A stretch of DNA of 64,000 nucleotides from assembly GCF_002900965.1 (NCBI RefSeq), contig NZ_PJOM01000004.1, positions 62,001-126,000 of the forward strand, written 5' to 3'. The position numbers and the translations under genes are program-made. This stretch comes from Pseudotabrizicola formosa. GTDB taxonomy: Bacteria; Pseudomonadota; Alphaproteobacteria; Rhodobacterales; Rhodobacteraceae. Below the pieces are notes generated by a model. The model made no database searches and was not told the DNA's origin. It saw only the letters and a list, made by a program, of their open reading frames with translations. Shown one piece after another: positions 5,817 through 28,397 of this stretch. Position 1 is the first letter of the stretch. Each line of letters starts with the position of its first letter.

Positions 5817-5828
5817 GGCACGCCCCCG

Positions 5829-7007: not shown

Positions 7008-7011
7008 CAGG

Positions 7012-9789: not shown

Positions 9790-9944
9790 CGGGCACCTTC
9801 GTTGTTTTCCGGCAGCCTAGGTTTGCAGCGGCCTGCGCGCATAACCGAAAGCGACCGCTGAATGTCTGTTCCAGCCGCCTGAGCGGCGTTGACAGCGCGG
9901 GCCGGGCAATCGCACTCTGCCTCATGACCGACACGGGGGAAGAC

Positions 9945-10772
9945 ATGCGCAGCTATGCGCGGCCACAGACACTCGACGAAGCCATCGGCCTGCTGGCGCA
10001 GGGACAGCACCGCATTCTGGCGGGCGGCACCGATCTTTACCCAAGTGCCGGGATGCAGCTTGACGGCGACGTGCTGGACCTGACCGCCATTCCCGCACTT
10101 TCTGGCGTTACGCATGGGGCCGGGTTGCGCATCGGGGCCTGCACCACATGGACCGCGATTGCCGAGGCCGATCTGCCCCCCGCGCTGCGCTGTCTGCAAC
10201 AGGCGGCCCGGCAGGTGGGTGGGCGGCAGGTGCAGAATGCGGGCACCATCGGCGGCAACCTGTGCAATGCCTCCCCCGCCGCAGATGGCGTGCCGCCGCT
10301 GCTGGCGCTGGATGCGGTGGTAGAGCTTTCGGGTCCGGGCGGGACACGACAGGTGCCCCTGACCCATTTCCTGACCGGTCCCCGACAGACCCTGCGCGCC
10401 ACGGATGAGGTGCTGACTGCGGTAATCCTCCCCGATGCGGCGCTGTACGGGCAATCCAGCTTTGAGAAGCTGGGCGCGCGGGCCTATCTGGTGATCTCTA
10501 TCGCCATGGTCGCGGCACGGATTCAGGTCACAAACGGTCAGATCACCAAGGCCGCGATTGCGGTGGGCGCCTGCTCTGGCGTGGCGCAACGCCTGCCCGC
10601 GGCAGAGGCGGCGCTGACAGGCGCACCCGTCGCCGAAGCCGCCGCCAGAGTGCGCGCCGCAGATGTGGCAACCGCTTTGTCACCCATCGATGATGTGCGG
10701 GCCAGCGCAAGCTATCGGATCGTCGCCGCAACCGAACTGGTGCGCCGTGCCGTCACCGGGGCCTTGGCATGA
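9945..10772 (+). CDS. Molybdenum hydroxylase FAD-binding subunit (CoxM/XdhB type)
   Basis: 275 aa medium subunit of a xanthine-dehydrogenase-family enzyme; it carries FAD and passes electrons from the Fe-S clusters to the acceptor. Motifs: ILAGGTDLYP (about residue 29) and TIGGNLCNASPAADGVPPLLALDA (about 100-122), both FAD contacts, then the CO-dehydrogenase-flavoprotein C-terminal domain. The ATG at 9945 has GGGGGA seven bases upstream and gives the usual MRSYARPQTLDEA start; an ATG at 9924 lacks a ribosome binding site. The stop overlaps the next gene (ATGA), which supplies the Fe-S and Mo domains. First gene of the catabolic run. Confidence 0.92.
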   Translation: MRSYARPQTLDEAIGLLAQGQHRILAGGTDLYPSAGMQLDGDVLDLTAIPALSGVTHGAGLRIGACTTWTAIAEADLPPALRCLQQAARQVGGRQVQNAGTIGGNLCNASPAADGVPPLLALDAVVELSGPGGTRQVPLTHFLTGPRQTLRATDEVLTAVILPDAALYGQSSFEKLGARAYLVISIAMVAARIQVTNGQITKAAIAVGACSGVAQRLPAAEAALTGAPVAEAAARVRAADVATALSPIDDVRASASYRIVAATELVRRAVTGALA

Positions 10773-13423
10773 TCGCCTTCACCTTGAACGGCAAGCCGGT
10801 CACGACCAAGGCCGCCCCCACCGCGCGCCTGACCGAGGTGTTGCGCGATCACCTGGGGGCCATGGGCACCAAGGTGGGCTGTGACGCCGGTGATTGCGGG
10901 GCCTGTACGGTCCTTCTGAACGGCGCACAGGTTTGTGCCTGTATGGTGCCTACGGCGCGGGTCGCGGGCGCCATCGTCGAAACGATAGAATCGGACGCCG
11001 AAGATCTGGAAAATCTGCGCAATGCCTTCCTGCGCCACGGGGCGGCGCAATGCGGCATCTGTACGCCGGGGATGCTGATGGCAGCGGTCGATCTGCGCCG
11101 CCGCGTGCCCGCACCGACCGAGGCACAGGTGCAGGATGCTTTGGGCGGCGTGCTCTGCCGCTGCACCGGCTATCGCAAGATCATTACGGCGATCTGCGAT
11201 ACCGCTGTGTCAGACCCTGTTTGTACCGAAGGCGTCGGCGCATCCGTCCCCCGGCTGGACGGGCAAGCCAAGGTGCGCGGCGACAGTTTCGGCGCGGATG
11301 ACTGGCCGCAAGGCGCGCTGACCGTGGTCGCCTTGCGATCCCCGCACCCCCATGCCGCGTTTCGCTTCGGCGATCTGTCGGGCTTTGCCCGCAGCCCCGG
11401 CGTGGCAGCCATTTTCACTGCCGCCGACATTCCCGGACGCAACGCCTTTGGCGTGATCCCCGCCTTCGCCGACCAGCCTGCCATCGCCCCAAGCCCGGCA
11501 CGGTTTCGCGGGGAATGTGTGGCGCTGATGGCCTTTGAGGCCGGAACAGAGCCTGATCTGACGGGCTTTCCGGTGGAGTGGGTGCCTCTGCCGGCGCTGA
11601 CCACCCCTGCCGAAGCCGAGGCACAGGGCGCGCCGCAGGTCCACCCCGACCGCGCGGCAAACCGCCTGATCGAAGGCCGCGTTATCCGGGGCGATGCAAA
11701 GACGGCACTGGCGCAATCGGCGCATATCGTCACCGGCACCATGCAGACCGGCTATGTCGAGCACGCCTATATCGAACCCGAGGCCGGGGCCGCATGGATG
11801 GAGGGCGACACCCTGACCATCCGCGCCTGCACCCAGGCCCCGGTGATGGACCGCGACGAAACGGCCCTGGTCCTGGGCCTGCCGCCAGACCGGGTACGGA
11901 TCATCCCTTCGGCCGTGGGCGGCGGGTTCGGGTCGAAATTGGATGTCAGCCTGCAACCGCTCCTCGGGCTGGTCACGCTGAAAACCGGGCGGCCCTGTCG
12001 CATGGTCTATTCCCGTCGCGACAGCATGACATCAACCACCAAGCGCCATCCGGCAGAGATGCAGGGCAGCATCGGCTGTGATGCCAGCGGTCGGCTGACT
12101 GGGATGGTCTTCGAAGGGCGATTCAACACCGGGGCCTATGCCAGTTGGGGGCCGACCGTGGCCAACCGGGTGCCGGTGCATGTGAGCGGTCCTTATCTGA
12201 CGCCCAACGTCCACGCCCGGGCCCGCGCCATCCACACCCATGGCCCGGTCTCCGGTGCCTTCCGCGGCTTTGGCGTGCCGCAGGCGGCGCTGTGGCAGGA
12301 AACCCTGTTTGACCAACTGGCGGCAAAGGCCGGGCTGGACCGGCTGGAGTTCCGCATCCTGAACGCCCTGCGTGACGGAGATGCCACGGCGACCGGACAG
12401 GTGATGCAGGCCGCAGGAATAGGGCCTTGCCTGACAGCCCTTCGCCCACATTGGAAAAGAGCCATGTCAGAGACTGTTCCGGGCCGGGGGGTCGGTGTCG
12501 CCGCATGCTGGTACGGCTGCGGCAATACCGCGCTCCCCAACCCGTCTACCATCCGCATTGGCCTCTCCGCCCAGGGCCGCGTGATGCTGCATCAGGGGGC
12601 AACCGATATCGGCCAGGGATCAAATACCGTGATCGCCCAGATCGCGGCGCAGGCGCTCGGCCTGCCGCTCGCGCAGTTCACGCTGATCGGCCCCGATACC
12701 GCCCTGAGCCCCGACGCGGGCAAAACCTCAGCCAGCCGGCAGACCTTTGTCTCGGGCCGCGCCGCCAAAGCCGCTGCAGAGGCGCTGCGCCGTCAGATCC
12801 TGCGGCTGGGAAATGCATCAGACGGCGCGACGCTGGCGCTCACTGGCGCGACTTTGACCCTCACCGAAGGCCGCACCCGCCGCCAGATTGATCTCTCCAC
12901 CCTCCCCCGCGACCACCACGGCTATGCCCTCACGGCAGAGGAAAGCTATGACCCACCAACCTCGGCGCTGGATGAAAACGGGCAAGGCGTGCCTTATGCG
13001 CTCTATGGCTACGGCGCGCAGATGGTGGAACTGGAGGTGGACCCTGCCCTCGGCACCCTGCGCCTGCTGAAGATCACCGCTGCCCATGACGTGGGCCGCG
13101 CCATCAACCCCCAGCTTGCCACCGGCCAGATCGAGGGCGGCATTGCGCAGGGAATCGGCCTCGCGCTGATGGAAGAATACCTGCCCGGCCGCACCGAAAA
13201 CCTGCACGATTATCTGATCCCCACCATCGGCGACGTGCCCCCGATCGAAAGCCTGCTGACCGAGGTGCCAGATCCCGAAGGCCCCTATGGTGCCAAAGGG
13301 CTCGGTGAACATGTGCTGATCCCCACCGCCCCCGCCATCCTGAACGCCATCCGCCACGCCACCGGGGCCACCCTGACCCAAGTGCCGGTCCTGCCGCATC
13401 GCCTGCTGGCCGCCCTCAGATGA
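10769..13423 (+). CDS. Molybdenum hydroxylase, fused [2Fe-2S] and molybdopterin-binding subunit
   Basis: 884 aa. The N-terminal 150 residues equal a separate small subunit: plant-ferredoxin cluster (GCDAGDCGACTVLLNG) and a second four-Cys cluster (QCGICTPGMLM and GVLCRCTGYRKI). From about residue 160 the large molybdopterin-cytosine-dinucleotide subunit follows: VGGGFGSKLD, GAFRGFGVPQAALWQE, and near the C-terminus YGAKGLGEHVLIPT, with the Glu used as catalytic base in this family. Such enzymes insert water oxygen into a C-H next to ring nitrogen or into aldehydes. Overlaps the FAD-subunit gene by 4 bases. Neighbours (6-hydroxynicotinate-reductase-like, HyuAB) point to a nicotinate-like N-heterocycle. 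The fusion is less common than three separate genes. Confidence 0.92.
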   Translation: MIAFTLNGKPVTTKAAPTARLTEVLRDHLGAMGTKVGCDAGDCGACTVLLNGAQVCACMVPTARVAGAIVETIESDAEDLENLRNAFLRHGAAQCGICTPGMLMAAVDLRRRVPAPTEAQVQDALGGVLCRCTGYRKIITAICDTAVSDPVCTEGVGASVPRLDGQAKVRGDSFGADDWPQGALTVVALRSPHPHAAFRFGDLSGFARSPGVAAIFTAADIPGRNAFGVIPAFADQPAIAPSPARFRGECVALMAFEAGTEPDLTGFPVEWVPLPALTTPAEAEAQGAPQVHPDRAANRLIEGRVIRGDAKTALAQSAHIVTGTMQTGYVEHAYIEPEAGAAWMEGDTLTIRACTQAPVMDRDETALVLGLPPDRVRIIPSAVGGGFGSKLDVSLQPLLGLVTLKTGRPCRMVYSRRDSMTSTTKRHPAEMQGSIGCDASGRLTGMVFEGRFNTGAYASWGPTVANRVPVHVSGPYLTPNVHARARAIHTHGPVSGAFRGFGVPQAALWQETLFDQLAAKAGLDRLEFRILNALRDGDATATGQVMQAAGIGPCLTALRPHWKRAMSETVPGRGVGVAACWYGCGNTALPNPSTIRIGLSAQGRVMLHQGATDIGQGSNTVIAQIAAQALGLPLAQFTLIGPDTALSPDAGKTSASRQTFVSGRAAKAAAEALRRQILRLGNASDGATLALTGATLTLTEGRTRRQIDLSTLPRDHHGYALTAEESYDPPTSALDENGQGVPYALYGYGAQMVELEVDPALGTLRLLKITAAHDVGRAINPQLATGQIEGGIAQGIGLALMEEYLPGRTENLHDYLIPTIGDVPPIESLLTEVPDPEGPYGAKGLGEHVLIPTAPAILNAIRHATGATLTQVPVLPHRLLAALR

Positions 13424-13466
13424 CTCCTCCTCTTAGTCATTATCTGTTCATAAATATCCCGGGGGT

Positions 13467-13484
13467 CCGGGGGCTGGCCCCCGG
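13467..13484. repeat. GC-rich hairpin between hydroxylase and reductase genes
   Basis: CCGGGGG-CTGG-CCCCCGG forms a 7-bp stem with a 4-base loop in the 88-base gap between the Mo subunit and the next gene, preceded by AAATATCC. No U-tract follows, so it is not a classical terminator. From memory, similar C/G-run hairpins are common in Rhodobacterales intergenic DNA; this was not checked. It may protect the upstream message or partly uncouple the two gene groups. Confidence 0.6.
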
Positions 13485-13511
13485 TCCGACTTCAGCCACA
13501 AGGGCCACCGC

Positions 13512-14954
13512 ATGACTGCTCCAGCCGAAAAGATCCGCTGCGATGCCTGTCCGGTGATGTGCTACATCGCCCCCGGCCAGAGCGGGGCCTGTGACCGCTA
13601 TGCCAATGTTGACGGGCGTATCTTGCGCACCGATCCGGTGGTCCTTTTGTCCCGCACCGTTGCGGCAGGTGGGCATGTCGTGCCCTTTGCCACCCGTGAC
13701 TGGGACGGTGATCCCTTCCCTGCCGATGCCTTTGTCACCGGCATCGGGTCGGGCACCACCTACCCCGACTATAAGCCCGCACCCTTTGTCATTGCGTCCA
13801 CTGTTGACGGGGCCGATATGGTTACGGTGGTCACCGAGGCGATCTTTTCCTATTGCGGCGTCAAGGTGAAAATCGACACCGACCGGCATCTGGGCGCAGA
13901 AGGTGCGATTGTCCGGGCCGGGGGTGAACCGGTTGGTCATGTCACCACCACGGAATACGGCAGCCAGATGCTCGCCTTGGGCGGCGTGCATCACCTGACC
14001 GGCGGCAGCAAGCCCGAAGGCCGGGTCACCTGCGCCACCCTGCTCTCGCTGTGCAATGCGGCACCTGTCGATCTGACCATCGATGGCGGTTCTGCCATCA
14101 CGGTGCAGGCGGGACAGCCACCGATCGTTGATGGCCGGGCCGAGCGGCGGATGCGGGTAGGCTGCGGGTCAGCCACCATCGGCATGTTTGCCAGCCAATG
14201 GGTCGGGCTGGTGGATGAGGTGGTGGTCGTCGATGACCACATCACCGGCGTGGTCAGCGAACATCAGGCCGGCAAGGTGCTGGGCTGGCAGCCCACCGGC
14301 ATCCGGATCAAGGGCCACCGCTCGACGCCGGGCCGCTATTTCCGGGTGTCGGAACCGGGCTTAGGCTGGGGCGGCACGCAATTGACAGATCCGCTGACCA
14401 TTCTGGGCCCCTGGGAGGCGCGCAAGGGCGCAAGGCCCGGGCTGACCCTTCTGATGGTGTCCACAACCGGCGAGGAATTTGCCTATTACGTGCTGGATGA
14501 GGCTCTGACACCGCAAAAACAGCCGCTCCCCGAGGCGCTGCAGGCCACCGTCAGGCTGATTGACGAGAATTGCGAGCCATCGCTGTGCACGGTGCTGTTC
14601 ATGGGCGGCGCGGGCGGCTCTCTTCGTGCCGGGGTGACCCGGAACCCGGTGCGATTGACCCGGTCGGTGCAAGCCGGGCAGACGCGGCTGACCAGTGGCG
14701 GGGCTGACTGCTATGTCTGGCCGGGCGGCGGCATCACCTTCATGGTCGATGTGACTCGCCTGCCTGCGGGTGCCTTTGGCTATGTGCCCACGCCCGCGCT
14801 GGTGGCACCGCTGGAATTTACCCTGCCACGCGCGGAGTATCTGGCAATGGGCGGTCATGAAACGGCGATCCGTACCCTCGAGGCCACCCGGGCGGAGGGT
14901 GGCGAATATCAGACGCACGCCCGGCTGATGCAACCGCCAAGGCCGCTGCCATGA
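13512..14954 (+). CDS. 6-hydroxynicotinate reductase-like iron-sulfur protein
   Basis: 480 aa. The N-terminus has C10-x2-C13-x3-C17-x9-C27 (IRCDACPVMC, GACDRY), a [4Fe-4S] motif. The whole protein resembles the family named after 6-hydroxynicotinate reductase of Eubacterium barkeri, an enzyme that reduces the hydroxylated pyridine ring to a tetrahydro-oxo lactam and carries Fe-S and covalently bound flavin. A strong ribosome binding site (AAGGG) precedes the ATG. The stop overlaps the UPF0280 gene. Standing after a Mo hydroxylase fits hydroxylation followed by ring reduction. I see no canonical ApbE-type flavinylation motif, so cofactor and substrate remain inference; the family name may be over-specific. 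Confidence 0.75.
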   Translation: MTAPAEKIRCDACPVMCYIAPGQSGACDRYANVDGRILRTDPVVLLSRTVAAGGHVVPFATRDWDGDPFPADAFVTGIGSGTTYPDYKPAPFVIASTVDGADMVTVVTEAIFSYCGVKVKIDTDRHLGAEGAIVRAGGEPVGHVTTTEYGSQMLALGGVHHLTGGSKPEGRVTCATLLSLCNAAPVDLTIDGGSAITVQAGQPPIVDGRAERRMRVGCGSATIGMFASQWVGLVDEVVVVDDHITGVVSEHQAGKVLGWQPTGIRIKGHRSTPGRYFRVSEPGLGWGGTQLTDPLTILGPWEARKGARPGLTLLMVSTTGEEFAYYVLDEALTPQKQPLPEALQATVRLIDENCEPSLCTVLFMGGAGGSLRAGVTRNPVRLTRSVQAGQTRLTSGGADCYVWPGGGITFMVDVTRLPAGAFGYVPTPALVAPLEFTLPRAEYLAMGGHETAIRTLEATRAEGGEYQTHARLMQPPRPLP

Positions 14955-15787
14955 CCGGCGCGGTGGTGGCGCGCCTTCCAGACGGGCGCATGCATCTGCA
15001 GCACGGGCCGATCGACATCATCGCACAGGCCTGGGGCGATGCAGCGGCTGTCGCCGAGGGCGAGAGGCTGGCGGCCACAAGATTCGGCTCTGTGCTGGCG
15101 GAACTGGCCGCCGAACTGCCGGTGTTGCGCCGCGAGGCGGGGCAGCCGACTGGCAGCATCGGGCAGAAGATGGCACAGGCCACCGCGGCCTTTGCCCCCC
15201 GCTTCATCACGCCGATGGCAGCGGTGGCGGGCGCTGTGGCAGATGCTGTGCTGTCCGCATTGGCCATTCCTGGCGTGACGCGGGCCTATGTCAACAACGG
15301 CGGAGACATAGCGCTGCATCTGATCCCGGGTGAGAGTCTGACCTGTGCCATTGCCACGCAGCCCGGCTGGCCTGACCGCCTTACCTTGCGCGCCGAAGAT
15401 GCGGTGCGCGGCATTGCCACCTCGGGCTGGCGGGGACGAAGCTGGTCACTGGGGATTGCCGATTCCGTGACCGTGCTGGGACGGACGGCGGCCATGGCCG
15501 ATGCGGCGGCCACCATGATCGCCAATGCGGTGGACCTGCCCGGCCACCCAGGCATCTGCCGTCGCCCGGCGGTGGACTTGCAAGCCGACAGCGATCTGGG
15601 CACGCGGCCTGTCACCGTGGCTGTGGCGCGGCTGTCGGCAGCCGAGGTTGCCGCGGCGCTTGCCGCTGGCAGTGCCGCGGCAGAGTCGTTCCGCAGGCGC
15701 GGCCTTATTGAAGCGGCCGCACTTTTCCTGCAGTCTGAAACGCGGGTCATTGGCCCGGTTGCGTTGAAGGAGCCTGCCCTTGTCTGA
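14951..15787 (+). CDS. UPF0280 family protein (ApbE-like fold)
   Basis: 278 aa member of UPF0280, a family related in fold to the ApbE FMN transferases but with no established function. Visible blocks: GPIDIIAQAWGD near the N-terminus, a central Ala-rich segment (MAAVAGAVADAVLSAL), AYVNNGGDIALHL (about residues 114-126), and TAAMADAAATMIANAV (about 178-193), the last two matching positions where ApbE-like proteins bind flavin nucleotide. Translationally coupled to the reductase gene (ATGA) and overlapping the next gene by 8 bases. The pairing suggests a maturation or accessory role for the reductase; this is inference. Confidence 0.85.
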   Translation: MTGAVVARLPDGRMHLQHGPIDIIAQAWGDAAAVAEGERLAATRFGSVLAELAAELPVLRREAGQPTGSIGQKMAQATAAFAPRFITPMAAVAGAVADAVLSALAIPGVTRAYVNNGGDIALHLIPGESLTCAIATQPGWPDRLTLRAEDAVRGIATSGWRGRSWSLGIADSVTVLGRTAAMADAAATMIANAVDLPGHPGICRRPAVDLQADSDLGTRPVTVAVARLSAAEVAAALAAGSAAAESFRRRGLIEAAALFLQSETRVIGPVALKEPALV

Positions 15788-16361
15788 CTTTGCCATCCGC
15801 AAGATCACCTTGCAGATTGAGGAAATCCTGCATGAATCGGGGCCGATTGCCGACCCGCCGCCGCTGCGTGGCGCGGTCTATGCCATTTGTGCCAACCCTT
15901 TCGCCGGGCGGTTTGAAGAAAACCTGATGCCTGCGATGGAGGCATTGAAACCGCTGGCACTGAACCTGACCGATCGTCTGGTCGCCGCCATGGGCGGGCG
16001 CGATGGCATCGACGCCTATGGCAAAGGGGCCATCGTGGGCGAGGCCGGGGAAAGCGAGCACGGCGCGATCTGGCATGTGGCGGGCGGTTACGGCATGCGC
16101 GAACGGCTGGGCGAGTGCCGGGCGATTGTGCCCTCGGCGATGAAGGTGGGCGGCCTGGGGGCCACGCTGGATATACCGCTGGGCCATCTGAACGCCGCCT
16201 ATGTTCGGTCGCGCTTTGATGTGATCACCGTGGCCTGCGAGGATGGCCCGCGCGCAGGCGAGGTGCTGTTTGCGCTGGCCATGGGGCGCGGCGGTCGGGT
16301 GCACAGCCGGATGGGCGGGCTGGAAATCGATCAGGTCAAGGGCGAGGACGGGTTGAGATGA
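15780..16361 (+). CDS. AA_synth (DUF1185) family protein
   Basis: 193 aa protein of the family called amino acid synthesis family protein, for which no reaction is firmly established. It begins with TTG, but AAGGAG stands eight bases upstream and the reading frame starts inside the end of the UPF0280 gene, so this start is well supported. Conserved-looking stretches include GAVYAICANPFAGRFEENL (about 27-45), DGIDAYGKGAIVGEAGESEHGAIWH (about 73-97) and HLNAAYVRSRFDVITVACEDGPRAGE. Overlaps the next gene by 4 bases. Its place between ring reductase and transporter suggests a catabolic step, perhaps on the reduced or opened product. Confidence 0.82.
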   Translation: MSDFAIRKITLQIEEILHESGPIADPPPLRGAVYAICANPFAGRFEENLMPAMEALKPLALNLTDRLVAAMGGRDGIDAYGKGAIVGEAGESEHGAIWHVAGGYGMRERLGECRAIVPSAMKVGGLGATLDIPLGHLNAAYVRSRFDVITVACEDGPRAGEVLFALAMGRGGRVHSRMGGLEIDQVKGEDGLR

Positions 16362-17704
16362 GGGGGCTTGCAGGGGCCCTCACGCTCCTGCCCGGCGCGG
16401 CCTTTGCCTGCGCCTTGCCACCTTCGGTGATCCTGACCCTGCCGACCGGGCATTACATCGCCGGAGCGGCGGTGACAGTGGCTCTGACCGCGTTGATGGG
16501 CGCGATGGCACAGCGCCTCCCACGCCTGCAGGCAGTGCCGGTGCTGGAACGGCGGGTATGGGTGCCGGTGTCGGTATCCTCCTACCTGTCGTTCCTGTGT
16601 TTTCTGGGACTGGTCCTGGTTGGCCTGTTCGGCGCGCGTGATCCGATGCACAACCTGATGACGCTGGTGTTCTGGACCGGGATCTGGATCGCGGTGCCGT
16701 TGGGGTCGATGCTGCTGGGCAATCTGTGGCGCGCCATCAACCCCTGGACCGCGCCTGTGCGCATTGCCCGCACATTGCTCGGGCGCAGCGGCAACATTGG
16801 CCTGTCGCGGCTCGGGCATTGGCCTGCAGTGATATTCTACATGGGCTTTGTCTGGTTTCAGCTCGTGTCGATGTCCCCCGATGATCCCTATGTGCTGGCC
16901 CTTACCGCGCTGATTTACTGGCTGGTGATCTTTGCCTTCGCGGTGGCCGAGGGAGAAGACTGGCTGCAACAGGGCGAGTTTCTGACCGTGCTGATGGGCT
17001 ATCTGGCCAAGGTGGCGCCCTTCTGGCTGGAGCTTGATGGCACGCGTGTCCGGCTGATGCGCGGCTGGCCCGGAACGCAGGTGCTGCGGATGGCTCCGCT
17101 TTCAGTTTCTGCTATGGCCTTCATCACGCTGGCGCTGTCCGCATTGACCTTTGACGGGTTGATGGAAACCTTCTGGTGGCATGCGGTGATCGGGGAAAAC
17201 CCGCTGGAGCCAAGCGGGCGATCTGCAGTGATGGGGGTCAATACGTTGGGTCTGCTGGCGGTCTGGGCGATCACCATTGCCGCGCTTTGGGCAGTGATCC
17301 GGCTGGGGCGGGTGATTGGCGGCGCGCGCTTTGCCACCGGGCCGGTGATGCTGTCGTTTCTCGCCATCGCGGCGGGCTATCATGCCGCGCATTATCTGGT
17401 GACCCTGCTGACCGCGGGCCAGTACACGCTGGCCGCGCTGAACGACCCGTGGTTTCGCGGTGACGCTTATCTGGGCCTGCCGCCGTTTTATGTGTCATTC
17501 GGCTTTCTGACCGATCAGACCATCATGCCGCTGATCTATGCCGCACAATTTGCCGCCATTCTGGGCGCGCATCTGCTGGCGGTGCTGCTGTCGCTGCGTC
17601 TGGTGGGCGAGATGCGGGCAATGGCGCATCTGCCGATGACCGTGCTGATGGTCGGCTATACCGTGCTGGGGCTGTGGCTGCTGTCCACCGCGCGGACGGG
17701 GTGA
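16358..17704 (+). CDS. Uncharacterised polytopic membrane protein
   Basis: 448 aa, with roughly ten hydrophobic segments and a cleavable-looking or anchor-type N-terminus (LAGALTLLPGAAFACALP). Motifs include NPWTAPVRI, WPAVIFYMGFVWFQLV, DWLQQGEFLTVLMGYLAKVAP and a late HAAHYLVTLLTAGQY. This pattern (WPA, then a GE-x-A-(K/R)-x-AP stretch) recalls a widespread family of integral membrane proteins, some labelled fenitrothion-hydrolase-like in databases; that label is weak and I do not adopt it. It is coupled to the AA_synth gene (ATGA) and precedes the transporter genes by 88 bases. A transport or membrane-enzyme role in the same pathway is possible. Confidence 0.75.
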   Translation: MRGLAGALTLLPGAAFACALPPSVILTLPTGHYIAGAAVTVALTALMGAMAQRLPRLQAVPVLERRVWVPVSVSSYLSFLCFLGLVLVGLFGARDPMHNLMTLVFWTGIWIAVPLGSMLLGNLWRAINPWTAPVRIARTLLGRSGNIGLSRLGHWPAVIFYMGFVWFQLVSMSPDDPYVLALTALIYWLVIFAFAVAEGEDWLQQGEFLTVLMGYLAKVAPFWLELDGTRVRLMRGWPGTQVLRMAPLSVSAMAFITLALSALTFDGLMETFWWHAVIGENPLEPSGRSAVMGVNTLGLLAVWAITIAALWAVIRLGRVIGGARFATGPVMLSFLAIAAGYHAAHYLVTLLTAGQYTLAALNDPWFRGDAYLGLPPFYVSFGFLTDQTIMPLIYAAQFAAILGAHLLAVLLSLRLVGEMRAMAHLPMTVLMVGYTVLGLWLLSTARTG

Positions 17705-17792
17705 AAAAATCGTGGACAAATGCGGCGTCCCGGCAAAAGGTTGAACCCAGAGGCGCCCGCAGAGGTGCCCCGCAACAGTGGAGATGTTTGAG

Positions 17793-19073: not shown

Positions 19074-19110
19074 GTGCGGTCCTTGCATGCCCTGCCAAGG
19101 TTGAATGCGC

Positions 19111-19137
19111 GCGCGCCCTTCGCCAAAGAGGGCGCGC
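19111..19137 (+). terminator. Intercistronic stem-loop after the binding-protein gene
   Basis: GCGCGCCCT (19111-19119) pairs with AGGGCGCGC (19129-19137), 9-bp stem and 9-base loop, in the 68-base gap between the binding-protein and permease genes. No U-tract follows, so it is probably an attenuating or mRNA-stabilising hairpin that keeps binding protein in excess. The GAGGG that could serve the GTG start of the permease lies in its 3' arm. Confidence 0.5.
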
Positions 19138-19141
19138 CAGA

Positions 19142-20020
19142 GTGAGCTTTGGTCCGTTCCTGCTTCTGGCCCTGCTCGAAGGCACGGTTATGGCGGCGGT
19201 GCTGGCGCTGACGGCGGTCGGCCTGTCGCTGGTGTTCGGCGTAATGCGTGTGGTCAACGTGGCGCATGGCGAGTTTTACATGCTGGGCGCGGTTCTGGCA
19301 TGGTTTGTGACCTATTACCTGCCGTTTCCGCCCGCGATTGCCTGGCTGGCGGCCCTGATCATTGCGCCCTTGATCGTGGCAGTGATTGCGGCGCTGACGG
19401 ATACGCTGATTCTGAAACGCCTGAACTATGATCCCGAGGCCACGATCGTGGCCACCATCGGCCTGCTCTACATGCTGCAACAGGCGGCGCTCACGTTTTA
19501 CGGCCCTGACGCGCGGCCCGTGGTCGCCCCGTTTGAATGGCGCATCCAGCTGCCGTGGTTCGGCTATTCCGGCTACAAGCTGTTTGTCGTGCTGACGGCC
19601 GTGGTCATTCTGGCCGCGGTCTGGCTGTTCATGACCCGCAGCAAGGCCGGGCTGGTGATGCGCGCAACGCAGGTTGACCGTGAGACGGCGCAAGCCTTCG
19701 GCATCAACGTTGACAGGGTCTATGCAGGCACCTTTGCCCTTGGCGGCGCACTGGCGGCGGCGGCGGCGGTGCTGATCGTGCCAATCCAGCAGGCCCATTA
19801 CCTGATGGGGCATGACCCCCTCTTGCTGTCCTTCATCGTTGTCATCATCGGCGGGCTGGGGTCGATCCGGGGGACGCTGGTGGCCGCGCTTGTCATTGGC
19901 CTGTCGGATGGGATCATCAGCATGTTCTTTTCTCCGACGCTGGCCAAGATCATCGCCACGCTGCTGGTGGCGCTGGTGCTGGTGTTCCGCCCGCAGGGCC
20001 TGTTCGGGGCAAAGGCATGA
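19142..20020 (+). CDS. Branched-chain-type ABC transporter permease (LivH-like)
   Basis: 292 aa inner-membrane permease with about eight hydrophobic helices. Family landmarks: ALTAVGLSLVFGVMRVVNVAHGEFYMLGA near the N-terminus and the late cytoplasmic loop VIIGGLGSIRGTLVAALVIGLSDG, where the permease meets the ATPase. Starts with GTG at 19142. Its stop overlaps the LivM-like start (ATGA). Works with the other four transporter genes to import the ligand captured by the upstream binding protein. Confidence 0.93.
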   Translation: MSFGPFLLLALLEGTVMAAVLALTAVGLSLVFGVMRVVNVAHGEFYMLGAVLAWFVTYYLPFPPAIAWLAALIIAPLIVAVIAALTDTLILKRLNYDPEATIVATIGLLYMLQQAALTFYGPDARPVVAPFEWRIQLPWFGYSGYKLFVVLTAVVILAAVWLFMTRSKAGLVMRATQVDRETAQAFGINVDRVYAGTFALGGALAAAAAVLIVPIQQAHYLMGHDPLLLSFIVVIIGGLGSIRGTLVAALVIGLSDGIISMFFSPTLAKIIATLLVALVLVFRPQGLFGAKA

Positions 20021-20961
20021 CAGACGGAGCAAAGATCTGGACGCTTCACCTGCTGGTTCTGGCAGCTGTGTTTGTGGCGCAATTCCTGCTGCCCCCTTAT
20101 CACGCCACCAATCTGGCGCGGATCATGGTGCTGGCGGTGTTTGCGATGGGCTACAACATCGCCTTTGGCTACACCGGGCTGTTGTCGCTCGGCCACGCGC
20201 TGTTTTTTGCGGCAGGCATGTATGGCATGGGCCTGCCTGTCTGGCATCTGGGCTGGCTGTCATTGCCTGCATTGATTGCAGGGCTGGTGGCCGGCGGGGC
20301 ACTGGCGGGGGTGGTCGGCCTTCTGGCGCTGCGCACGGCAGGGGTCAGCTTCATGATCGTAACGCTGATGTTTGCGCAGGCCGGGTATCTGACGCTGCTG
20401 TATCTGAACACATGGACAGGCGGAGATGAGGGGTTTGTCGTCTTGTCAGAGGCGCGCGTGCTGTTCGGCTTTGATCTGGCCACGGATACGGCGCGTTTTA
20501 TCACCGCATTCACCCTGTTTGCAGCGGGCCTGCTGGCCTGCCTTTTGCTGGTGCGGTCGCCCTTTGGCCGGGTGATGGTGGCGATGCGGGAAAATGAGGA
20601 GCGCAGCCGGATGCTGGGGTATGACCCGTTCCGGATCAAGCTGCTGGCGCTGGCGGTGTCGGGTCTCTATGCCGGGTTGGCCGGGGCGGCTTATGGGATG
20701 CTGTTCGGCTATGTGGGCGCATCCTTTGCCACCATCCAGTATTCCATCTTGCCGATGCTCTATGTGCTTCTGGGCGGAGCGGGCACGGTGCTGGGGCCAT
20801 TTCTGGGTGCTCTGTTGATGTTCTACCTGATCGACATCACCAGCAATTACACCGACGCCTATCTGTTCGTGGTCGGGGCGGCCTTGGTCGGGCTGGTGCT
20901 GTTCGCGCCCAAGGGCATTTTGGGCACATTGCGCGAAAGGGTCTGGCGATGGTTGCCGTGA
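20017..20961 (+). CDS. Branched-chain-type ABC transporter permease (LivM-like)
   Basis: 314 aa second permease subunit. Landmarks: MVLAVFAMGYNIAFGYTGLLSLGHALFF (about residues 29-56, the LivM hallmark with the GHA motif) and YVLLGGAGTVLGPFLGALLM near the C-terminus, the ATPase-coupling loop. Coupled to the LivH-like gene by 4 bases and overlapping the LivG-like gene by 13 bases. Heterodimerises with the LivH-like protein. Confidence 0.93.
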   Translation: MTDGAKIWTLHLLVLAAVFVAQFLLPPYHATNLARIMVLAVFAMGYNIAFGYTGLLSLGHALFFAAGMYGMGLPVWHLGWLSLPALIAGLVAGGALAGVVGLLALRTAGVSFMIVTLMFAQAGYLTLLYLNTWTGGDEGFVVLSEARVLFGFDLATDTARFITAFTLFAAGLLACLLLVRSPFGRVMVAMRENEERSRMLGYDPFRIKLLALAVSGLYAGLAGAAYGMLFGYVGASFATIQYSILPMLYVLLGGAGTVLGPFLGALLMFYLIDITSNYTDAYLFVVGAALVGLVLFAPKGILGTLRERVWRWLP

Positions 20962-21668
20962 TCGAGGCACGCGGCCTGACCCGGCACTTCGGCGGGCTGC
21001 GCGCGGTGGATGGGGTGGATTTCAGGCTCGAACAAGGCGAGATTCATGGTTTGATCGGGCCGAACGGCGCTGGCAAGACCACTTTTGTCAGCCTGCTGTC
21101 CGGGCGGATTCCGGTGCAGTCCGGCGTGATCACCCTGAACGGTGAAGACATCACCCACCTGCCCGCGCATCTGCGGGTGCGCAAGGGCGTGGCCTACACG
21201 TTTCAGATCACCTCGGTTTATCCGCGCCTGACGGTGTTCGACAATGTGGCTCTGGCCGCACAAGGCCGCGGCGCCGGGGATGTGGCAGCCGAAGTGGCAC
21301 AGGCCTTGTCCCGCGTCGGGATGACCGGGTTGGATCAGTCCATGGCCGGAACGCTGTCTTATGGGCATCAGCGGTTGCTGGAGGTGGCGATGGGTCTGGC
21401 GCTGCGCCCGCTGGTGCTCATTCTGGATGAACCGACGCAGGGCCTGGCTTCGGGTGAGATTGATGGATTCAAGGCGCTGATCCGGTCTTTGGTGCCGCAG
21501 ACCACCATCCTGCTGATCGAGCATAACATGGATGTGGTGATGGATCTGGCCGACCGGATCACCGTGCTGAACTTCGGGCAAGTGCTGGCCGTCGGCACCC
21601 CGGATCAGATCCGCGCCAACCGCGCGGTGCAGGATGCCTATCTCGGGGGCGATCATGCTGCGGGTTGA
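20949..21668 (+). CDS. ABC transporter ATP-binding protein (LivG-like)
   Basis: 239 aa ATPase. Walker A GPNGAGKTT (about residues 37-45), signature region TLSYGHQRLLEVAMGLA in place of the usual LSGGQ, as is normal for LivG (SYGxQ), Walker B LVLILDEPTQGL and H-loop LLIEHNMDVV. Overlaps both neighbours, confirming one operon. It couples ATP hydrolysis to the LivHM-like permeases together with the LivF-like protein. Confidence 0.94.
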   Translation: MVAVIEARGLTRHFGGLRAVDGVDFRLEQGEIHGLIGPNGAGKTTFVSLLSGRIPVQSGVITLNGEDITHLPAHLRVRKGVAYTFQITSVYPRLTVFDNVALAAQGRGAGDVAAEVAQALSRVGMTGLDQSMAGTLSYGHQRLLEVAMGLALRPLVLILDEPTQGLASGEIDGFKALIRSLVPQTTILLIEHNMDVVMDLADRITVLNFGQVLAVGTPDQIRANRAVQDAYLGGDHAAG

Positions 21669-22350
21669 GGGCATCACCGCTGGGTATGGTCCCGTCACCA
21701 TTCTGCGCGATCTGTCCTTTGCGGCGCAGGCCGGGCAGGTCACTTGCATCATGGGGCGCAATGGCGCGGGAAAATCGACCCTGTTGAAGGCAATCATGGG
21801 GCAGGTTCCGGTTCAGACGGGGCAGATCACACTGAATGGCGCGCCAGTGCACCGCTTGCCCGCTCATAAAGTGCCCGGCGAAGGGATTGCCTATGTGCCA
21901 CAGGGCCGGCGGCTGTTCGGGCCGCTGACCGTGGCCGAAAATATCGAGGTCGGGTTGCTGACCCGGCGCAAGGGGCCGCAGACCCGGGAGTTCGTGCTCG
22001 ACCTGTTCCCGCGCCTGCGCGAACGGCTGGATCAGGTCGCCAGCACCCTTTCGGGAGGGGAGCAGCAGATGCTGGCGATTGCGCGCGCGCTGTGCCTGGA
22101 GCCGTCGGTGTTGCTGCTGGATGAACCCAGCGAAGGTTTGCAGCCGTCGATGATTGCGCTGATCCGCGATACGGTGTTGCGGTTGCGCGATACCGGGCTG
22201 GCCACGGTGCTGGTGGAACAGCGGGTGGATACCGTGCTGCGCATGGCGGACCAGGTGGCCTTCATGGCGCATGGCAGGGTGGAGGCGCAGGTAGTACGGG
22301 CCGATTTGTCAGCCGACTCGACGCTGTTTCAGCAGTTTGTGGGGGTATGA
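21655..22350 (+). CDS. ABC transporter ATP-binding protein (LivF-like)
   Basis: 231 aa ATPase with Walker A GRNGAGKST, LivF-type PQGRRLFGPLTVAENIEVG, signature LSGGEQQMLAIARAL and Walker B VLLLDEPSEGL. The ATG at 21655 has GGGGG just upstream and gives the usual MLRVEGITAGYG start; ATG 21634 would add seven residues inside the LivG-like gene without a good site. The stop overlaps the HyuA start, tying the importer to the hydrolase genes. Confidence 0.94.
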   Translation: MLRVEGITAGYGPVTILRDLSFAAQAGQVTCIMGRNGAGKSTLLKAIMGQVPVQTGQITLNGAPVHRLPAHKVPGEGIAYVPQGRRLFGPLTVAENIEVGLLTRRKGPQTREFVLDLFPRLRERLDQVASTLSGGEQQMLAIARALCLEPSVLLLDEPSEGLQPSMIALIRDTVLRLRDTGLATVLVEQRVDTVLRMADQVAFMAHGRVEAQVVRADLSADSTLFQQFVGV

Positions 22351-24371
22351 TGGCCGGTCTGGTCGCAGGCATCGACGTGGGTGGCACCTTCACCGATCTG
22401 GTGATCGTCGATCCTGGCACAGGTGCGGTCCGGCTGGCCAAGGTGCCCACCACCCTGCCCAATCAGGCCCCCGGCGTTTTGAACGCGCTGGTTGAGGCCG
22501 GGGCGGAGCTGGCCGATATAGATCTGATCGTGCATGGCACCACCACCACCACCAATGCCGTGCTGGAACGCACTCTGGCAAAGACCGGACTGATCACCAC
22601 ATTGGGCTTTCGCGATGTGCTGGAACTGGGGCGGCGCACCCGGCCCCATGCCTACGGGATGCATGGGCAATTTGTGCCGATCATACCGCGCGATCTGCGA
22701 TTTGAGGTGCCGGAGCGGATGGATGCGCGTGGGTCAATCCTGACGCCACTTGATGAGGGCGCTGTACGAAAAGCGGCTCTGCGCTTGCGCGATATGGGTT
22801 GCGAAAGCGTGGTGATCCATTTTCTGCACGCCTATGCCAATCCCTCACATGAGAGGCGCGCGGCGCAGATCGTGGCAGGGATCTGGCCGAACACGTTCAT
22901 CACCATGGGCCATGCCCTGCTGTCGGAAAGCCGCGAATACGAACGCGGGGTGACGGCGGCGGTGAATGCCAGCGTGCAGCCGCTGCTGGAACGCTATGTC
23001 AGTCGGCTGGCCGATCAGCTGGCCGCACAGGGCTATGCGCATGAGCTGCTGGTGATGAACGGCAATGGTGGCATGGTTTCGGCCCGGTCCGTGTCGAAAG
23101 AGGCCGTGAAAACGGTGATGTCCGGCCCCGCTTCGGGCGTCATGGCGGCGCTGGCCACCGGGCGCCGCGCCGGAATGACAAACCTGCTGACCTATGACAT
23201 GGGCGGCACCTCAACCGACGTCGCCATGATCAAGGGCGGACGCGCCCCGGTTTCAAATGAGATCGAGGTGGAATATGCCATGCCGATCCATGTGCCGATG
23301 GTCGATGTGCGCACGGTGGGAGCGGGCGGCGGATCGATCGCGCGGCTGGATGCTGCCGGGATGCTGCGCGTCGGGCCGGAAAGTGCCGGGTCCAGCCCCG
23401 GGCCGGTGTGCTATGGCCGGGGCGGCACACGGGTGACGATTTCCGACGCCAACCTGCTGCTGGGCCGCCTGCCCGCCGCGCGGTTCGGGCAAGCGGCAGA
23501 GGCGGCACGGGCGGCGATGGCGGATCAGATCGCCACGCCTTTGGGTCTGTCGGTTGAGGAAGCTGCCGAGGCGGTGGTGCGGATTGCCAATATCCATATG
23601 GCAGGCGCAATCCGCATGGTGTCGATCTCGATGGGGGCCGATCCGCGCGACTTTGCGCTGTTTGCCTTTGGCGGGGCCGGGCCGCTGCATGCGGTGGCCC
23701 TGGCGCGCGAACTCGCGGTGCCAAAGGTGCTGATCCCGGCACGGCCCGGCATCACCAACGCGCTTGGCTGTGTTGTTGCCGATCTACGGCAGGATTTCGT
23801 GCGCACCCTGAACCGACCGCTCGACACGGTGGATATAGACATGGTGCAGGCGATCTTTGCCGGGCAAGAGGCCGAAGGGCGGCGACTGGTTGGGGTCGAG
23901 AAGATCCGCCTTGCCTCGGTGCGCACCGAGTTTTCGGTTGATATGCAATTTGTCGGGCAGACGCATCTGCTGCGCGTGGCCTTGCCGGATGGCGCGCCGA
24001 CACGGGACGATCTGCAACGCCTGTTCGAAGCCGCCTATCATCAACGGTTTCGCGTCACCCTGCCCACGATAAGGGCCAATCTGGTGAACCTGAACGTATC
24101 GGTCATCGGCGCGCGGCCAGAGATGGACCTGTCGGCCCTGATCGACCGGGCCGGTCGCAAGGCCGAGGCGGTGCCGCAGGCCTCGCGCCCGGTGTGGTTC
24201 GGCGGCTGGGTCGACACCCCGGTGTATTGGCGCGATCACTTGCCATTGGATCTGGACCTTTCGGGTCCGGCGATCATCGAACAGATGGACACAACGATTG
24301 TGATCGACCCCGGCTGTACCGTCACGTCCGACCCTGATGGCAATCTGGTCGTGCAGGTGCCCCATGCTTGA
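22347..24371 (+). CDS. hyuA: Hydantoinase/oxoprolinase subunit A (HyuA)
   Basis: 674 aa. The N-terminal actin-like ATPase motif GIDVGGTFTDLVIVD, the mid-protein YDMGGTSTDVAMI and the FAFGGAGPLHA block mark the HyuA/oxoprolinase-A family. With HyuB, such enzymes use ATP to open lactam, hydantoin or imide rings (5-oxoproline, N-methylhydantoin, caprolactam). It overlaps the LivF-like gene by 4 bases and the HyuB gene by 8 bases. In this operon the most economical role is hydrolysis of a lactam made by hydroxylation and reduction of an N-heterocycle. The precise substrate cannot be told from sequence. Confidence 0.93.
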   Translation: MMAGLVAGIDVGGTFTDLVIVDPGTGAVRLAKVPTTLPNQAPGVLNALVEAGAELADIDLIVHGTTTTTNAVLERTLAKTGLITTLGFRDVLELGRRTRPHAYGMHGQFVPIIPRDLRFEVPERMDARGSILTPLDEGAVRKAALRLRDMGCESVVIHFLHAYANPSHERRAAQIVAGIWPNTFITMGHALLSESREYERGVTAAVNASVQPLLERYVSRLADQLAAQGYAHELLVMNGNGGMVSARSVSKEAVKTVMSGPASGVMAALATGRRAGMTNLLTYDMGGTSTDVAMIKGGRAPVSNEIEVEYAMPIHVPMVDVRTVGAGGGSIARLDAAGMLRVGPESAGSSPGPVCYGRGGTRVTISDANLLLGRLPAARFGQAAEAARAAMADQIATPLGLSVEEAAEAVVRIANIHMAGAIRMVSISMGADPRDFALFAFGGAGPLHAVALARELAVPKVLIPARPGITNALGCVVADLRQDFVRTLNRPLDTVDIDMVQAIFAGQEAEGRRLVGVEKIRLASVRTEFSVDMQFVGQTHLLRVALPDGAPTRDDLQRLFEAAYHQRFRVTLPTIRANLVNLNVSVIGARPEMDLSALIDRAGRKAEAVPQASRPVWFGGWVDTPVYWRDHLPLDLDLSGPAIIEQMDTTIVIDPGCTVTSDPDGNLVVQVPHA

Positions 24372-26046
24372 CCCCGTCACCTTGGCTGTCATTCAGGCCG
24401 GGCTCCAGCAGGTCTGCGACGAGATGGACCTGACCTTCAGCCGCGCCGCCTTTTCGCCGGTGATCGCAGAAGCTGACGACAGGTCGGACGGGATTTACAG
24501 TGCGACAGATGGCAGCCTGATCGCCCAAGGGTCAAAGGGGTTGCCGGTATTTGTCGGCGTGATGCAGTTTTCGACCCGCACAATTCTGGACCGCATCCGC
24601 ACCGGCCTGACCGCGGCGCCCGAACCGGGTGACATCTATATGGTGAACGACCCCTATCTGGGCGGCACCCATCTGATGGATGTGCGCTTTGCCATGCCGG
24701 TCTGGCGTGACGGGCAGATCTATTGCTGGCTGTCCAACACCGGGCATTGGCCCGATACCGGCGGTATGGTCCCCGGCGGATTCAGCGCCAGTGCAATCAG
24801 CGCCGAGCAGGAGGGGCTGCGGATTCCCCCGGTGAAACTGTTTAAAAAGGGCGTGCTAGACACGGAAATCTGGCAGATCATCTGTTCCAACATCCGGGTT
24901 TCCGATCAGCGGATCGGCGATGTGCAGGCGCAGGCAAGTGCCCTGCTGATCGGGGCAGAGCGTCTGGCGGTGCTGCTGGACCGCTATGGCGATGCCACGG
25001 TGTCGGAGGCCATTGCCGAAATGCGCAGCCGTGCCGCCCAGCAGATGCGGGCGATGATCGGGCTGATTGCCGATGGCGCATACAGCGCAACGGCGATCGT
25101 CGATTCTGATGGGGTGGTCAATGAACCTCTGAGCATTGCCGTCACCGTGACAAAGACCGCAGATCAGCTGACCTTCGATTTCTCGCAAAGCGCGCCGCCC
25201 TGCCTGGGGCCGATGAATTCGGTACGCGCCACAACCTTGTCTTCGGTCTATCTGGCGATGCGGCATATCTTCCCCGATGTGCCGATCAGTGCCGGAGCGT
25301 TCGAGCCGCTGGTGGTGACGGGGATCGAAGGCACCTTCCTTGATGCCCAATACCCGCGCCCGGTGTCGGGCTGCGCGGCAGAGGTCAGCCAGCGGATTGC
25401 CGAGGCCGTCTTTGCCGCCTTGGTACAGGCCATACCCGACCGGGTGACGGCGGCTCCTGCCGGAACCAGCGGCAATTTCGGGCTGGGCGGGCATGACCCT
25501 GACTCTGGGCAAGACTATGTGATGTATCAGATTTCTGGCGGCGGATATGGTGGCAACTCCGATCACGACGGGCTGTCCAACGGCTGCTCGACCATTGGCA
25601 TCTCGAAAGCCCCACCGGTGGAGATCATGGAGCAGAAGTTTCCCGTGCTCTACCGCCATTACGCCCTGCACGAAGGCAGCGGCGGGGCGGGCACCCATCG
25701 CGGCGGCTTTGGTCTGGATTACGAGATAGAACTGTTGCGCGGGCAGGCGCGCGCCAGTTTCGTGATGGACCACGGCCGCTCGGGGCCATTGGGCGCGCAG
25801 GGCGGGCAGGACGGTGGCGTCAATCGGGTAGAGGTGACGCGCGGGACCGAGGTGCTGGTGCCGCCACATCTGTCAAAAGCGCAGGATATCGTGCTGACGC
25901 CCGGCGATCGGGTGCGAGTCCGCACCCCCGGCGGTGGCGGCTTTGGCGACCCGTTGCGGCGTGACCCGGCCTTGGTGGCGGAAGATGTCAGGCTGGGGCG
26001 CTACACGGCGGCTCAGGCCCGTGCATTGTGGAATTGGCAAGGTTAG
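24364..26046 (+). CDS. hyuB: Hydantoinase/oxoprolinase subunit B (HyuB)
   Basis: 560 aa partner of HyuA. Landmarks: DPVTLAVIQAGLQQVCDEM at the N-terminus, DIYMVNDPYLGGTHLMDV (about residues 89-106, with Asp/His typical of the site) and the Gly-rich C-terminus RVRTPGGGGFGDPLRR. The ATG at 24364, inside the end of hyuA, gives the family start and has AGGTG upstream; an in-frame ATG at 24337 is too early. Last gene of the plus-strand run, meeting nagA tail-to-tail with a 4-base overlap, and no terminator is visible between them. Confidence 0.93.
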   Translation: MLDPVTLAVIQAGLQQVCDEMDLTFSRAAFSPVIAEADDRSDGIYSATDGSLIAQGSKGLPVFVGVMQFSTRTILDRIRTGLTAAPEPGDIYMVNDPYLGGTHLMDVRFAMPVWRDGQIYCWLSNTGHWPDTGGMVPGGFSASAISAEQEGLRIPPVKLFKKGVLDTEIWQIICSNIRVSDQRIGDVQAQASALLIGAERLAVLLDRYGDATVSEAIAEMRSRAAQQMRAMIGLIADGAYSATAIVDSDGVVNEPLSIAVTVTKTADQLTFDFSQSAPPCLGPMNSVRATTLSSVYLAMRHIFPDVPISAGAFEPLVVTGIEGTFLDAQYPRPVSGCAAEVSQRIAEAVFAALVQAIPDRVTAAPAGTSGNFGLGGHDPDSGQDYVMYQISGGGYGGNSDHDGLSNGCSTIGISKAPPVEIMEQKFPVLYRHYALHEGSGGAGTHRGGFGLDYEIELLRGQARASFVMDHGRSGPLGAQGGQDGGVNRVEVTRGTEVLVPPHLSKAQDIVLTPGDRVRVRTPGGGGFGDPLRRDPALVAEDVRLGRYTAAQARALWNWQG

Positions 26047-28192: not shown

Positions 28193-28321
28193 CCTGGGTC
28201 CTTTCCATCGCCGTCTGAGCCCCGCACCATGCGCCAAGCCACAGCGCGCAGCAACCCTGTCAGGCAAGCGCGTTTAGACCTTGCAGGAGCGTCGGCGACC
28301 GTTTAAACGACACGTCGCGTA

Positions 28322-28397
28322 GCCCCAATAGCTCAGCTGGTAGAGCATTTCATTCGTAATGAAGAGGTCGGCGGTTCGAGTCCGTCTTGGGGCACCA
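28322..28397 (+). tRNA. tRNA-Thr (anticodon CGU)
   Basis: A 76-base cloverleaf. Acceptor GCCCCAA pairs with TTGGGGC (28387-28393), discriminator A and an encoded CCA end at 28397. D-stem GCTC/GAGC, anticodon loop TTCGTAA with anticodon CGT at 28355-28357, T-loop TTCGAGT. It reads ACG threonine codons. It stands alone on the plus strand between two minus-strand operons, with no integrase or repeat beside it. Confidence 0.97.

Follow-up and report, generated by a model that had tools for sequence, protein, structure and literature searches.

A predicted nicotinate operon of Pseudotabrizicola formosa with an ATP-dependent HyuAB-type hydrolase as candidate ring opener

Which enzyme opens the ring when genes for the reductive breakdown of an N-heterocycle are accompanied by a hydantoinase in place of an enamidase? 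This question is raised by an operon of 13 genes at 9945-26046 (+) in the window, a stretch of 64,000 nucleotides from Pseudotabrizicola formosa (assembly GCF_002900965.1, contig NZ_PJOM01000004.1, positions 62,001 to 126,000). The operon combines genes for a molybdenum (Mo) hydroxylase, 6-hydroxynicotinate reductase (Hnr), UPF0280, AA_synth, a membrane protein, a five-gene branched-chain-type ATP-binding cassette (ABC) importer (17778-22350, +) and the two subunits of HyuAB. All are read in one direction, as the original prediction, made from the bare sequence, had said, and profile searches with Pfam and NCBIfam recovered the families it had named. That prediction also let HyuAB take the place of the enamidase of Eubacterium barkeri, a proposal that comparative genomics supports: HyuAB and enamidase exclude one another statistically in genomes with Hnr. 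Among 143 such genomes, pooled from two sets, 78 encode a HyuA of the window's type, 60 an enamidase, five neither and none both. Judged by homology and gene content, the operon quite probably serves nicotinate uptake and reductive breakdown by a route of the E. barkeri type, with HyuAB as the ring opener. Its genes are the following.

9945-10772 (+): flavin adenine dinucleotide (FAD) subunit of the Mo hydroxylase, NdhF-like; PF00941 and PF03450 above cut-off; 36% to the corresponding FAD-subunit gene in E. barkeri
10769-13423 (+): fused [2Fe-2S]/molybdopterin subunit of the predicted nicotinate hydroxylase (NdhS, NdhL and NdhM in a single chain); Fer2, Fer2_2, MoCoBD_1 and MoCoBD_2 above cut-off
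13512-14954 (+): Hnr, no N-terminal ferredoxin-type domain; 39% to E. barkeri Hnr over 462 residues
14951-15787 (+): UPF0280/COG2122, predicted maturation factor of Hnr with an ApbE-like fold; NF003322, 351 bits (cut-off 290)
15780-16361 (+): AA_synth (DUF1185); PF06684, 210 bits; related to PDB 3BYQ/2QTP
16358-17704 (+): polytopic membrane protein of no family; no Pfam or NCBIfam match
17778-19073 (+): substrate-binding protein (SBP) of the ABC importer; PF13458
19142-20020 (+): permease 1 of the ABC importer; PF02653
20017-20961 (+): permease 2 of the ABC importer; PF02653
20949-21668 (+): ATPase 1 of the ABC importer; PF00005 and PF12399
21634-22350 (+): ATPase 2 of the ABC importer; PF00005
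22347-24371 (+): HyuA, ATP-binding subunit of the predicted ATP-dependent lactam hydrolase; PF05378, PF01968 and PF19278 above cut-off
24337-26046 (+): HyuB, predicted metal-binding hydrolysis subunit; PF02538, 513 bits

In the proposed route, the importer would bring nicotinate into the cell, and the FAD and fused iron-sulphur (Fe-S)/Mo proteins would, by their homology and position, convert it to 6-hydroxynicotinate. Hnr, assigned by homology, would reduce this compound, with ferredoxin as the putative electron donor, to 1,4,5,6-tetrahydro-6-oxonicotinate (THON), a six-membered enamide lactam. Because THON is such a lactam, attack at the carbonyl is the natural reading: HyuAB would activate the lactam carbonyl with ATP and hydrolyse the C-N bond. 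The resulting 2-(aminomethylene)glutarate would lose ammonia to give 2-formylglutarate, the same product as that of enamidase (PMC9304392), which would then be processed towards glutarate as in Azorhizobium.

The distribution of the two ring openers was followed with the window's HyuA and with P0011, an enamidase from the class that scores 376 bits against the E. barkeri structure (PDB 2VUN) and is, by sequence, a true enamidase. Both were searched first in the 77 Hnr-bearing genomes, the window's included, that the class set of 387 contains, and then in all 387. In the Hnr-bearing set, the best matches per genome are separated by a clean gap (at least 56% or at most 50% identity for HyuA; at least 71% or at most 43% for enamidase). 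Window-type HyuA alone is present in 44 of the 77 and enamidase alone in 32; no genome has both, and the only one with neither, G349, is assembled in 770 contigs and 93% complete. The 310 genomes without Hnr contain window-type HyuA in four cases (57-59%, all from family f97) and enamidase in two, with HyuA matches of 49-53% in five further genomes (G080, G152, G230, G189 and G102) not counted. Both ring openers are tied to Hnr, which is present in 44 of 48 HyuA-bearing and 32 of 34 enamidase-bearing genomes. Homologues scattered without co-occurrence, which the original prediction had named as speaking against it, are the opposite of this pattern. A fresh test set consisted of 66 other Hnr-bearing genomes of the family, in which Hnr occurs in 67 of 149 genomes (G518, the other listed genome of the genus, is without it). 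Here 34 genomes have HyuA (64-82%), 28 have enamidase (68-74%), none has both and four have neither. One of the four, G530, has a completeness of 73%; in G492 there is an enamidase-like gene at 50%; G415 is without explanation; and in G400 the pathway is apparently decaying, its hnr homologue (G400:C28:4391-5641, 54% identity) containing five in-frame stops. Fisher p values are 7e-21 for the class and 1e-14 for the family set, both ignoring relatedness. The window's genome, which is 99.99% complete, contains no match to P0011 at E<=1e-60.

A look at the exclusion corrected for relatedness was obtained from a pair test on an Hnr tree of 81 sequences (75 of the 76 class loci, L109 being too short, plus the window and five of the ten loci L110-L119). 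It was inferred with IQ-TREE under a single mixture-free model, with a bootstrap still slightly short of convergence (correlation 0.983); L077, the locus of G349, was left out of the test. The HyuA/enamidase state changes at least ten times on this tree, with seven changes forced by starred branches, and all seven independent starred pairs differ in opposite directions (sign test p 0.016). A quick tree offers five starred pairs (p 0.06), too few for significance. The exclusion is not just a matter of descent, and the switches occur inside conserved loci. In family f88, enamidase is found in L104-L106 and HyuAB in L107, all with the gene order Hnr-UPF0280-AA_synth-AA_synth, and genus g72 includes two genomes with enamidase (G165, G245) and one with HyuAB (G373).

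HyuA lies within the fetched stretch in 26 of the 43 HyuAB-type loci and thus does not always adjoin hnr. For 14 of the other 17 the distant HyuA region was fetched as well; HyuB is present in all 14, on the same strand and within 2 kb in 13. Distant HyuAB homologues occur in two enamidase-type loci, L106 (38%/32%) and L144 on a Sulfitobacter plasmid (44%/38%), so that enamidase genomes are free of window-type HyuAB only. Of the 26 plasmid records with Hnr, five were opened; those from Fuscovulum, Neorhizobium and Sagittula carry window-type HyuAB, and those from a member of the Comamonadaceae and from Sulfitobacter carry enamidase.

As a rival explanation, the HyuAB clusters might degrade a different N-heterocycle, such as another pyridine carboxylate or an N-substituted compound, by the same hydroxylase-Hnr chemistry, with a product lactam that enamidase cannot open. 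The substrate assignment derives from sequence comparison, and the Mo proteins do vary among Hnr clusters, being either fused as in the window or long (1176-1267 aa in L142, L143 and L039). The long protein of L143 is annotated as nicB. Those of L142 and L039 we take to be alike. In family f97, moreover, HyuAB is found near another Mo-hydroxylase-like gene and without Hnr. However, the HyuAB and enamidase clusters contain the same hydroxylase, Hnr, UPF0280 and AA_synth, and they swap within a genus or family. Total avoidance is also what one would expect of alternatives for a single step, whereas two substrates should have left some genomes with both enzymes. A cluster on a Neorhizobium plasmid speaks for nicotinate as the predicted substrate: beside hnr, UPF0280, two copies of AA_synth and a hyuAB pair at 70/76% to the window, it has genes that the depositors annotated as nicA/nicB nicotinate dehydrogenase. 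We regard a different substrate as unlikely.

Several points nevertheless weigh against nicotinate breakdown with HyuAB as the ring opener. Nicotinate as the predicted substrate rests on homology; the top PDB matches of the Mo subunit are aldehyde oxidoreductases rather than the nicotinate dehydrogenase 3HRD, and this subunit reaches no NCBIfam equivalog cut-off. The PDB and NCBIfam rankings were uninformative, and the Mo subunit was dismissed as an arbiter of the substrate. The role of HyuAB, in turn, is drawn from comparative genomics, which supports it as a prediction, and five of the 143 Hnr-bearing genomes have neither enzyme by the criteria of the sets. Enamidase opens THON without ATP, and the reaction therefore does not need it. 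HyuA and HyuB score 506 and 308 bits against the caprolactamase models NF050156/NF050157, whose equivalog cut-off is 1000 bits. Finally, the window-type HyuAB clade can serve another purpose, because the f97 genomes G097, G324, G185 and G260 (L121-L124) encode it (HyuA 57-59%) without Hnr and, in three of the four loci, near the different Mo-hydroxylase-like gene. These loci perhaps represent a sister pathway for some other N-heterocycle.

The sequences of HyuA and HyuB, with Hydantoinase_A and Hydantoinase_B domains above cut-off, are those of a predicted ATP-dependent lactam hydrolase. The ATP motifs that define the family (DxGGTxTD, DxGGT and GxxPGP; PMC8453981) are all present in HyuA as DVGGTFTD, DMGGT and GxxPGP. 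HyuB residues D48, H112, D115 and H137 align, by hand count, with the CapB metal ligands D41, H99, D102 and H124 given in the same paper. These motifs and the Asp-His-Asp-His site are shared with the two-subunit, ATP-dependent lactam hydrolases CapAB and OplAB (PMC8453981, PMC11033972). Such relatives open epsilon-caprolactam and delta-valerolactam, the latter being the substrate of OplAB (PMC11033972), at the expense of ATP, and activation of the lactim form has been proposed (PMC8453981, PMC11033972). In contrast to CapAB and OplAB, the window's HyuAB falls below the caprolactamase cut-offs, is linked to Hnr and has an enamide lactam with a carboxylate as its predicted substrate. Membership in the same superfamily, and a score of 285 bits between HyuA and the acetophenone carboxylase gamma subunit, would also allow HyuAB to be an ATP-dependent carboxylase like acetone or acetophenone carboxylase. 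However, HyuA is closer to N-methylhydantoinase (443 bits) and to the CapA chain of caprolactamase (6YRA_A, 416 bits), and the acetophenone carboxylase models stay far below their cut-offs, which makes a carboxylase very improbable indeed.

HyuAB might also act on an earlier or later compound of the pathway, with THON being opened by another protein such as AA_synth. To our knowledge no function has been described for AA_synth, and it is present in both kinds of loci and in E. barkeri. If AA_synth were the opener, it should be the HyuAB loci that depend on it, but linked copies occur in 22 of 43 HyuAB loci as against 29 of 32 enamidase loci, the reverse of the need. In addition, the tested members of the HyuAB family open lactams (PMC8453981, PMC11033972). 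This explanation is thus distinctly improbable, and HyuAB remains the preferred candidate for the opening of THON.

The name Hnr, which the original prediction had given with the suffix "-like", holds because tblastn aligns the window protein with the hnr gene that shares a locus with the enamidase gene in the E. barkeri genome, and because 17 of the 26 plasmid records with an Hnr homologue annotate it as 6-hydroxynicotinate reductase. A scan of genomes with the E. barkeri enamidase sequence yielded this locus, L110, and nine related ones, all from Firmicutes but for one in a deltaproteobacterial metagenome-assembled genome; the distant amidohydrolase L120 (25%) was left out. The order in L110 is hnr, UPF0280, a dehydrogenase-like gene, the FAD subunit, the Fe-S subunit, two Mo subunits, a membrane protein, enamidase and AA_synth. 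For genes lacking a tblastn match these names are our own assumption, and genes further along presumably encode fermentation steps. The window shares with this nicotinate fermentation cluster the Mo hydroxylase genes, Hnr, UPF0280 right after Hnr (32% identity) and AA_synth (41% to the gene adjoining the enamidase gene). Because the E. barkeri cluster has all three, Hnr, UPF0280 and AA_synth are, by homology, assigned to the known nicotinate pathway. The FAD and fused subunits are collinear with the four E. barkeri hydroxylase subunits (36-41%), the fused one with three consecutive genes (38-41%). Apart from the enamidase and the four-chain hydroxylase, E. barkeri differs by an extra N-terminal ferredoxin-type domain in the Hnr frame (CxxCxxCxxxC twice), which is missing from proteobacterial Hnr.

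Since proteobacterial Hnr is without this domain, reduced ferredoxin must have an outside source. Eight of the 76 Hnr loci contain genes for 2-oxoacid:ferredoxin oxidoreductase, seven of them together with one for a pyridine-nucleotide oxidoreductase. Three of the five opened plasmid records have a gene for ferredoxin-NADP reductase no more than 8 kb from hnr. Neither a ferredoxin oxidoreductase nor a ferredoxin-NADP reductase gene is among the 13 genes of the window operon. Cysteines 10, 13, 17, 27, 218 and 354 of Hnr, a CxxCxxxCx9C set and two more, are invariant in 56 sequences picked by hand. The E. barkeri enzyme reportedly has covalently bound flavin and Fe-S clusters. Two candidate flavin sites were rejected: 'TCATL' (173-177), proposed as a conserved attachment Thr, is not retained in anaerobes, and in the GCGSAT segment, considered as ApbE-like, Ala replaces T222 in 13 of the 82 sequences that remained once five of the 87 Hnr rows, each below 380 aa, had been dropped. 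The predicted Hnr structure (predicted local distance difference test score, pLDDT, 84) had no match in the PDB at E<=0.001 in a structure search, and structure alignment counted none at Z>=5, the best row being the T-protein of glycine cleavage (Z 5.0, 65 residues); no PDB relative is convincing. For a predicted model this is a missing match and not proof of a new fold.

UPF0280 (E<=1e-5) is found in exactly the 77 of 387 class genomes that have Hnr and in none of the 310 others, a figure for the class set. Of the 76 fetched loci, 75 have it on the strand of hnr and downstream of that gene. It is within 600 bases of hnr in 73 of these and 1.6 kb away in L071; for L109 the distance was taken from a split match to Hnr. 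The remaining locus, L108, runs out at the edge of its contig, and the UPF0280 of that genome stands at the start of another contig. It also stands beside Hnr in nine of the ten loci L110-L119, the tenth stopping inside hnr. UPF0280 is very likely an accessory factor dedicated to Hnr. Its predicted structure (pLDDT 94) matches the Desulfovibrio COG2122 protein 2O34 (Z 21.0; E 6.5e-15 by profile) and after that only ApbE, Ftp and FmnB (Z 14.0-16.0, then a drop to 7.9; root-mean-square deviation 3.0-3.5 over 200-215 residues; Foldseek ranks 3-41). Its sequence misses the Pfam gathering score of ApbE (19.8 bits, cut-off 25.6), and COG2122 has been described as only distantly related to ApbE (PMC5764234). 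The catalytic His of ApbE is His257 in the Vibrio cholerae enzyme, and the target motif in the partner protein is D-x-x-[ST]-G-A-[ST] (PMC12052999). No His is conserved between the invariant S158 and D184 of UPF0280, equated with ApbE Ser241 and Asp285 by motif reading, in an alignment of 50 sequences picked by hand, where residue 15 is the sole His present in more than 80%. The target motif is found in none of 87 Hnr sequences, five of which are incomplete sequences. No canonical ApbE was detected at E<=0.01 in the window's genome by a search that is blind to remote members (UPF0280 itself was unmatched), a result consistent with UPF0280 as the sole protein of that genome with an ApbE fold. 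From co-occurrence and the modelled fold, UPF0280 probably works as a maturation factor of Hnr or in its cofactor assembly.

The COG2122 proteins of methanogens and Desulfovibrio (PMC5764234, PDB 2O34) belong to the same family and fold and likewise partner a ferredoxin-linked system. Their role is in homocysteine synthesis, together with DUF39 and a NIL/ferredoxin protein, and COG2122 is required for this synthesis in Desulfovibrio (PMC5764234). The window's UPF0280, by contrast, is tied to Hnr. The strict link to Hnr provides a concrete handle on COG2122. A tentative and rather doubtful extension would make UPF0280/COG2122 a second class of ApbE-fold maturation enzymes which, without the catalytic His, install or activate flavin on Fe-S redox enzymes lacking the ApbE motif (Hnr and the DUF39/NIL-ferredoxin partner in homocysteine synthesis), and at the same time make HyuAB clades interchangeable ATP-driven ring openers behind hydroxylase/reductase modules for N-heterocycles.

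The core cluster, without HyuAB, was already described in 2012 for Azorhizobium and Bradyrhizobiaceae (PMC3511419), which are aerobic alphaproteobacteria like the organism studied here. Found by BLAST with E. barkeri genes, it comprises the hydroxylase, Hnr, an ABC transporter and two conserved unknown proteins and is said to encode steps one to three, so that an enamidase is implied there. The text of that paper, its figure aside, does not mention hydantoinase. No report of HyuAB as ring opener of a nicotinate pathway is among the matches listed from the open-access literature, outside which the key older papers lie; the excerpts of PMC5979394, PMC4926349 and PMC8941161 each pair nicotinate with hydantoinase or hyuA and do not link them. 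If our reading is correct, the aerobic reductive nicotinate route of Proteobacteria has two forms that are one enzyme apart, the ATP-driven one being the commoner in both samples (44/77 and 34/66 Hnr-bearing genomes), and the annotations 'hydantoinase' and '6-hydroxynicotinate reductase' could together mark nicotinate degraders. In that case a metalloenzyme that needs no ATP would have been replaced repeatedly by an enzyme that spends it, which calls for a physiological explanation, such as irreversibility, low substrate or metal supply.

Start/stop overlaps at most junctions, another feature claimed from the sequence, are borne out: nine of the 12 junctions overlap by 4-35 bases, two overlaps of 35 bases holding only if the longest reading frame is taken, and the other three have gaps of 68, 73 and 88 bases. 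The longest frame of the FAD subunit gene starts at 9924, and the ATG at 9945 has GGGGGAAG just upstream. The full 13-gene order recurs on a plasmid of Fuscovulum ytuae (66-89% identity), and the arrangement is therefore far beyond chance. Hnr and the membrane protein are the only two operon genes without any Pfam or NCBIfam model. The latter lies near a window-type SBP in L043, L046, L047, L066, L140, L141 and L143, and L073 has a 28% match without such an SBP; it is perhaps an accessory uptake protein that travels with the window-type importer. Among the class loci L034-L109, two linked AA_synth copies are present in 19 of 32 enamidase-type and one of 43 HyuAB-type loci; two copies are nevertheless present in each of the plasmid loci L143 and L145, which are of the HyuAB type.

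To the left, a divergent gene (7756-9789, -) encodes an OYE-type flavoprotein of 677 aa, whose nearest NCBIfam model, mycofactocin OYE 2, is below cut-off. A 59% homologue follows HyuB in L074, the sole such match among the 76 Hnr loci, and a connection with the pathway is possible but thin. Further left lies an operon for an RND efflux pump, a membrane fusion protein and a TetR regulator (2544-7629, -). The amidohydrolase gene adjoining HyuB on the right (26043-27167, -) was considered as a hidden enamidase and rejected, being nagA (TIGR00221, 262 bits, cut-off 226) with a nagB-II-like gene alongside; the pair (26043-28267, -) has no relation to the operon. It is followed by tRNA-Thr(cgt) at 28322-28397.

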